From Haloarcula marina (lineage in GTDB: Archaea > Halobacteriota > Halobacteria > Halobacteriales > Haloarculaceae), in the NCBI RefSeq assembly GCF_024218775.1, contig NZ_CP100404.1, positions 992,001 to 1,056,000 of the forward strand: a stretch of 64,000 bases of DNA, read 5' to 3'. Under the pieces are notes generated by a model that saw only the letters and a program-made list of their open reading frames with translations, searched no databases and was not told the DNA's origin. How positions within the stretch are numbered: the stretch's first letter is position 1; each line of letters begins with the position of its first letter. Both the position numbers and the translations under genes were made by a program. Positions 53,566 through 53,897 of this stretch are shown one piece after another.

Positions 53566-53707
53566 ACGGTGCGGTCACGGACTGCGAAATCGCGAAGAAG
53601 GGGGACAGACACGAGCTGGGACTCGTGGTGCGGCGACGGCGTCGGTCCACACGGACCGACCAGCCATGCCCACGGCCGTCGTCGCCGCGAGGGTCGAAGG
53701 GGGGAGA
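53566..53707. other. Intergenic part downstream of the APC gene
   Basis: About 140 nt without a supportable gene. It lies under the 3' end of any transcript started leftward from the metal-type promoter at 53855-53862. A 30-codon frame on the minus strand here has no support. Confidence 0.4.
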
Positions 53708-53830
53708 TTATTGAGTCGCCGGGACGCTCACCTCCGCTGTCGTCGGGAAAGTGACGGCTCGGCCAGTGACAGTCGTCTCGTCGTCCGCCGGGCGACCGCT
53801 CGTCGGCCACCGGACCGAGGGAGTCCTCAT
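53708..53830 (-). CDS. Possible 40-residue ORF under a metal-type promoter
   Basis: Starting at ATG 53830 (minus strand), 40 codons reading MRTPSVRWPTSGRPADDETT and ending ...VSVPATQ. The start is 25-32 nt downstream of the TATA box at 53855-53862, the exact leaderless spacing of this genome. The composition is basic and Thr/Pro-rich, unlike typical haloarchaeal proteins, so it may be a leader or the remnant of a lost gene rather than a working protein. No family is recognised. Confidence 0.4.
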   Translation of the reverse strand: MRTPSVRWPTSGRPADDETTVTGRAVTFPTTAEVSVPATQ

Positions 53831-53837
53831 GCAATCG

Positions 53838-53853
53838 TTTAGGTGTACCTAAA
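53838..53853. promoter_or_regulatory. DtxR-type operator TTTAGGT-GT-ACCTAAA
   Basis: A perfect 7-bp palindrome with a 2-nt spacer, matching the TTAGGT-N2-ACCTAA pattern bound by metal-dependent DtxR/IdeR-family repressors (haloarchaeal members are Idr, SirR and TroR). Placed between the TATA box and the ATG of the minus-strand ORF, where binding would block initiation. Confidence 0.65.
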
Positions 53854-53854
53854 G

Positions 53855-53862
53855 AATAAAAA
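53855..53862 (-). promoter_or_regulatory. TATA box for a leftward transcript
   Basis: TTTTTATT on the minus strand, 25-32 nt before ATG 53830. It is sandwiched between two TTTAGGT-type palindromes. Confidence 0.55.
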
Positions 53863-53872
53863 CGTGTCGGTT

Positions 53873-53888
53873 TTTCGGACGACCTAAA
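53873..53888. promoter_or_regulatory. Second, imperfect DtxR-type operator
   Basis: On the minus strand TTTAGGT-CG-TCCGAAA: the left half is perfect and the right half has two mismatches from ACCTAAA. Its centre is 35 bp from the first operator, with the TATA box between, so two repressor dimers could clamp the promoter. Confidence 0.5.
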
Positions 53889-53897
53889 ACCTCGGTG

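Follow-up and report, generated by a model that had tools for sequence, protein, structure and literature searches.

A conserved candidate iron-sparing small RNA behind a DtxR-type promoter in Haloarcula

What does a metal-responsive promoter control when no ordinary protein gene stands behind it? The question is raised by an intergenic region of Haloarcula marina within the window analysed here, a stretch of 64,000 nucleotides. An earlier note had described a DtxR/IdeR-type promoter in this region without an ordinary protein gene behind it, and this description holds. The palindromes, the TATA box and the 40-codon ORF that it reported are all present at the coordinates listed below. Its view of the promoter as an orphan does not hold, since a predicted, unannotated and conserved RNA gene of ~230 nt stands behind the promoter on the minus strand. 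The features are as follows:

53873–53888, minus strand: upstream DtxR-type operator TTTAGGTCGTCCGAAA, 5' of the TATA box; a second operator copy, equally spaced, is present in most relatives
53855–53862, minus strand: TATA box TTTTTATT, with the ATG 25–32 nt downstream; its position aligns in 29 relatives
53838–53853, minus strand: promoter-proximal DtxR-type operator TTTAGGTACACCTAAA, between the TATA box and the predicted start site
53602–53830, minus strand: proposed sRNA of ~229 nt; the promoter-to-tail unit is conserved in 31 of 32 genomes of the genus
53708–53830, minus strand: 40-codon ORF, beginning at the predicted 5' end of the transcript; 36–43 codons in 29 of 31 relatives
53729–53735, minus strand: GG[AG]GGUG element (GGAGGUG here), present in 31 of 31 relatives, including one without the ORF
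53630–53688, minus strand: 3' structured domain, an outer stem GCGGCGAC/GTCGCCGC around two hairpins, with conserved CCGUGGGCA inside
53610–53627, minus strand: 3' hairpin CACGAG-tcccag-CTCGTG, with 99.3% of cells paired
53602–53609, minus strand: invariant tail UCUGUCCC, present in 31 of 31 sRNAs; proposed seed for the acn start codon

The promoter and its operator regulon

The promoter-proximal operator is a perfect palindrome (TTTAGGTGTACCTAAA, 53838–53853), and a second copy with two mismatches (TTTCGGACGACCTAAA, 53873–53888) lies 35 bp from it. When up to three mismatches are allowed, three operator matches are observed in the window compared with 0.15 expected by chance, and none of 100 window shuffles gave three matches. 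The earlier note had proposed a search of relatives for operator conservation. In this search the operator was kept throughout, as an operator of the TTTAGGNNNNCCTAAA type (zero to two mismatches) occurs at a constant position in 31 of 31 Haloarcula loci. Across the loci compared in the genus, the ATG begins 8 nt past the proximal operator.

A member of a DtxR/IdeR regulon is expected to have a palindrome in its promoter and to share its operators with iron-uptake and Fe-S genes, in a genome that encodes a DtxR-family protein; all three are found here. Genome-wide, 11 sites match the operator pattern with up to two mismatches, compared with 4 for the reversed control pattern, and several of the sites at iron-uptake genes are paired, 26–36 bp apart. 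Operator pairs 36 bp apart (1741599/1741635 and 1745384/1745420) are located at two genes for Peripla_BP_2 substrate-binding proteins with a FecCD permease and an ATPase. Further operators are found at another ABC substrate-binding protein gene with a permease (1951185), at sufC (1105278) and at a ZIP transporter gene (3177741). At 1741599, the promoter of the substrate-binding gene is laid out like that of the sRNA locus: an operator, an AT-rich box, an operator and an ATG a few bases on. Two full DtxR-family proteins are encoded in the genome; the gene for the first is ~6 kb from sufC, and the second protein is closer to MntR models than to DtxR. The earlier reading of a metal-responsive promoter of DtxR/IdeR type is thereby borne out, the motif being common to iron-uptake and Fe-S genes and kept among the relatives. 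The same kind of operator and the same kinds of target (siderophore ABC, suf and metal transporter genes) characterize the haloarchaeal DtxR/IdeR/SirR/Idr regulons of iron homeostasis in Halobacterium and Haloferax. However, the targets reported for these regulons in the literature searched are protein-coding, whereas the predicted member described here is an sRNA.

Other palindromes were also observed. A different one, TTTAGACTCGTCTAA, stands directly 5' of the gene (~1567580) for the second of these regulators, a DtxR/FeoA-domain protein, with a GDT1 cation antiporter gene following; it possibly marks a distinct, autoregulated manganese regulon. A perfect palindrome, TTTAGATGCATCTAAA, is located at 2594447–2594462, 5' of a multicopper oxidase gene. 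Unexpectedly, the regulon also takes in a leaderless gene with a match to RGP (PF03214), which adjoins the ABC substrate-binding gene and has an operator pair (1949950–1949992) immediately 5' of it. The sufS gene of most Haloarcula, and of some genera besides, is preceded at 20–55 bp by a DtxR-like operator, in half or full form (e.g. TTTAGGCGAACCGAA).

The RNA gene and its 3' domain

The best conserved part of the locus is the 3' domain, which the earlier note had overlooked. When 60 relatives were searched at the nucleotide level, congeneric intergenic matches were best at 53602–53690 and in the operator region, mostly outside the ORF. The order of the unit is fixed: operator, TATA box, operator, ATG, a variable middle with GG[AG]GGUG, 3' domain, hairpin and UCUGUCCC. 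We infer that the 5' end of the sRNA lies at, or a few nucleotides from, the ATG at 53830.

The distribution of the RNA was assessed with R1, a covariance model built on the 3' domain. Exactly one good copy was detected in 31 of the 32 Haloarcula genomes (including Halomicroarcula), and the sole genome of the genus without a match is 71% complete. Outside Haloarcula, R1 gave no match above thresholds in 392 genomes of the order and 116 of the family (stricter filters). When 84,980 species were scanned for the pattern, Haloarcula, Halomicroarcula and related MAGs were identified as hosts, with a perfect operator 5' of 12 of 12; four bacterial pattern matches, all without an operator, were rejected as chance. 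In Rfam, no covariance model matched the window region at E ≤ 1 or five homologous loci at the gathering threshold, and on this absence of matches a known Rfam RNA family was rejected.

A transcript antisense to the APC permease gene, which the earlier note had considered, would overlap that gene, and the geometry in the H. marina genome is indeed tail-to-tail. However, the conserved unit and the RNA end at ~53602, 37 nt short of the APC stop codon (53565), and the genes adjoining the sRNA vary by species, relatives carrying a thermosome, halocyanin, SAM hydrolase or other gene as neighbour. Since the gene neighbours differ between species, the RNA is independent of any single one, and an antisense role is highly improbable. 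The locus has the character of an independent, conserved non-coding RNA gene, with a short ORF of conserved length overlapping its 5' half. It very likely represents a conserved RNA gene belonging to the metal regulon, and the sRNA is a candidate new RNA family and, functionally, a candidate archaeal analogue of RyhB.

The structure of the 3' domain was examined in an alignment of 31 sequences, 23 of them distinct. In this alignment, which was fitted to the model and so favours it, 96.7% of cells are paired, compared with 22–52% in slid controls, and both-side changes occur in 9 of 27 pairs, compared with 2.1 ± 1.1 in shuffles. None of 500 shuffles was as high on any covariation measure. An earlier, unfitted MAFFT alignment agrees, with 97.2% of cells paired and four double-change pairs. 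A 5' stem, P1, keeps its register across most lineages; it is tentative because it lies on average only ~1.3 SD beyond shuffles.

The 40-codon reading frame

A small-protein gene is expected to conserve its start and length and to exhibit purifying selection at the codon level. Here, the first is observed and the second is not. Of the 31 members, 30 retain the ATG, and a length of 36–43 codons is maintained in 29 of 31 despite lineage-specific stops; the probability of such a length in random sequence of similar dinucleotide make-up is only ~0.04–0.08 in most lineages. The predicted peptides are often Arg-rich, and the conserved length hints at translation. However, among the Haloarcula homologues no codon-position bias of substitutions was found in the ORF, and frame 0 has no consistent BLOSUM excess over the other frames. 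In species L012 the ATG and ~60 nt are gone, with the operators, GGAGGUG, 3' domain and tail retained, and in L017 the ORF is frameshifted to 89 codons. The ORF is without a match in distant relatives and is much less conserved than the 3' domain. Because there is no codon-level signal, and because L012 has lost the ORF while retaining the rest and L017 carries a frameshift, the region is read as functioning at the RNA level, with translation of its 5' part possible. Thus, the small-protein mRNA proposed in the earlier note stands as regards start and length, but not as regards amino-acid constraint, and one species is without the ATG.

These results bear on two alternatives. In the first, the effector is a protein, a microprotein of ~40 residues made in iron starvation, and the transcript is its leaderless mRNA with a long structured 3' UTR. 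An ATG at the predicted 5' end and an ORF length that is improbable by chance in each lineage would be explained in this way, but the silence of frame 0 on both coding measures, the fate of the ORF in L012 and L017, and the far stronger conservation of the 3' domain all point away from it, and we regard it as quite improbable. In the second, the RNA has a dual function, as a base-pairing sRNA and as the mRNA for a helper small protein. This would account at once for the ORF start and length and for the conservation of the 3' domain and the tail, and its logic is comparable to that of FsrA and the small basic Fbp proteins of Bacillus, although here a single transcript would be involved. Yet constraint at the amino-acid level was not detected, L012 does without the ORF, and L017 has it in altered form; such a dual function is therefore considered unlikely.

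The GG[AG]GGUG element has the same letters as a haloarchaeal Shine-Dalgarno sequence and is found near the ORF stop in all 31 RNAs. GGAGGUG as a ribosome site for a second ORF was rejected, since a start codon is not consistently downstream.

Aconitase mRNA as a predicted target

RyhB-type bacterial RNAs spare iron when iron is scarce, and iron-sparing sRNAs have been described across bacteria. Genes for aconitase, for succinate dehydrogenase and for Fe-S assembly belong to the standard target set of RyhB, FsrA and IsrR (PMC11257911). Since the promoter suggests an iron-sparing RNA, the usual targets of such RNAs were examined for complementarity.

An iron-sparing RNA is expected to have conserved complementarity to an iron-enzyme mRNA near its start codon, and this is observed for acn (aconitase, TIGR01342). 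The gene begins with AUGGGACAGAC in 10 of 10 Haloarcula genomes examined, and TTTATA lies ~27 nt upstream of its start, so that the acn mRNA is probably leaderless or nearly so. In all 10 genomes, the tail UCUGUCCC is perfectly complementary to GGGACAGA at the acn start codon, and the adjacent GUG, plus one or two bases in some species, lengthens the duplex to 11–13 bp. This duplex has an energy between –21.8 and –23.9 kcal/mol (p ≤ 0.002 compared with shuffled targets in each of the 10 genomes). Genome-wide there are 55 GGGACAGAC sites, and only two of them, at acn and sufS, lie exactly at a gene start, where ~0.03 matches are expected assuming ~3,700 genes. No tail match was found at sdhC in the Haloarcula genomes examined, and sufS was rejected as a conserved target, full-length pairing being present in only 2 of 16 Haloarcula species. 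Since the sufS match is complete in two species only, acn is the only conserved target found. The signal is clear from the tail alone; long-range duplex energies for the entire sRNA were not informative in a genome so rich in G+C.

Because three genes were examined and several RNA elements could have served as seed, the acn pairing alone is not overwhelming. In some folds the tail is also able to pair within the sRNA. An alternative accepts a real, iron-controlled RNA but has it act via a protein or other targets, through GGAGGUG or the CCGUGGGCA hairpin, with the acn match a coincidence. Elements other than the tail are indeed equally conserved, and the lack of pairing at sdhC and of conserved pairing at sufS would be consistent with this possibility. 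Nevertheless, the acn match falls exactly on the start codon in all 10 genomes and uses the invariant tail 3' of the last hairpin. We consider action through other targets rather unlikely, and aconitase a probable direct target of the RNA.

Taken as a whole, the best explanation, which we favour with modest confidence, is a trans-acting, RyhB-like iron-sparing sRNA repressed by a DtxR-family protein. When iron is plentiful, metal-loaded repressor on both TATA-flanking operators would block transcription, as the motif and the regulon suggest. When iron is scarce, the ~230-nt RNA would be made and would be stabilized by its 3' domain and terminal hairpin. The single-stranded tail and the adjacent GUG would then form 11–13 bp with AUGGGACAGAC at the (near-)leaderless start of acn mRNA, so that the start codon would be masked and less of the 4Fe-4S enzyme aconitase made. 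Expression, iron dependence and repression of acn are each deduced from sequence. A leaderless mRNA has no Shine-Dalgarno leader to mask, and the mechanism, if true, would show how an sRNA could silence such an mRNA. With its promoter logic, structure and precise predicted target, this conserved single-copy candidate is directly testable in Haloarcula. A fuller version, in which one archaeal, DtxR-controlled iron-sparing transcript both regulates aconitase at a leaderless start codon and serves as leaderless mRNA for a partner microprotein, appears doubtful.

The proposed sRNA resembles RyhB of E. coli and its analogues FsrA, PrrF and IsrR in being an independent RNA gene with a promoter under the main type of iron repressor. 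Production at low iron and action on aconitase at the translation start, which these RNAs share, are predicted for the Haloarcula RNA. In contrast to them, it is archaeal and has DtxR-type operators in place of Fur boxes, and no sequence relation was found in Rfam. Its putative seed is the 3' tail past the last hairpin, an ORF of conserved length extends from its 5' end, and it is predicted to act on a (near-)leaderless start codon instead of on a Shine-Dalgarno region. Known archaeal sRNAs, such as sRNA162 of Methanosarcina mazei and the stress and nitrogen sRNAs of Haloferax, are likewise intergenic and act on mRNAs, but none was found that is under iron or DtxR control or that targets aconitase. 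The literature searched contained no report of an archaeal or haloarchaeal sRNA controlled by iron or by a DtxR protein. As far as found, the Haloarcula RNA is previously undescribed and would be the first archaeal iron-sparing sRNA.

Complementarity to the tail was also seen elsewhere. In leuC, which encodes an Fe-S enzyme, partial tail pairing is present in only 6 or 7 of 10 genomes, and the 55 genomic copies of GGGACAGAC compare with 22 for the reversed control.
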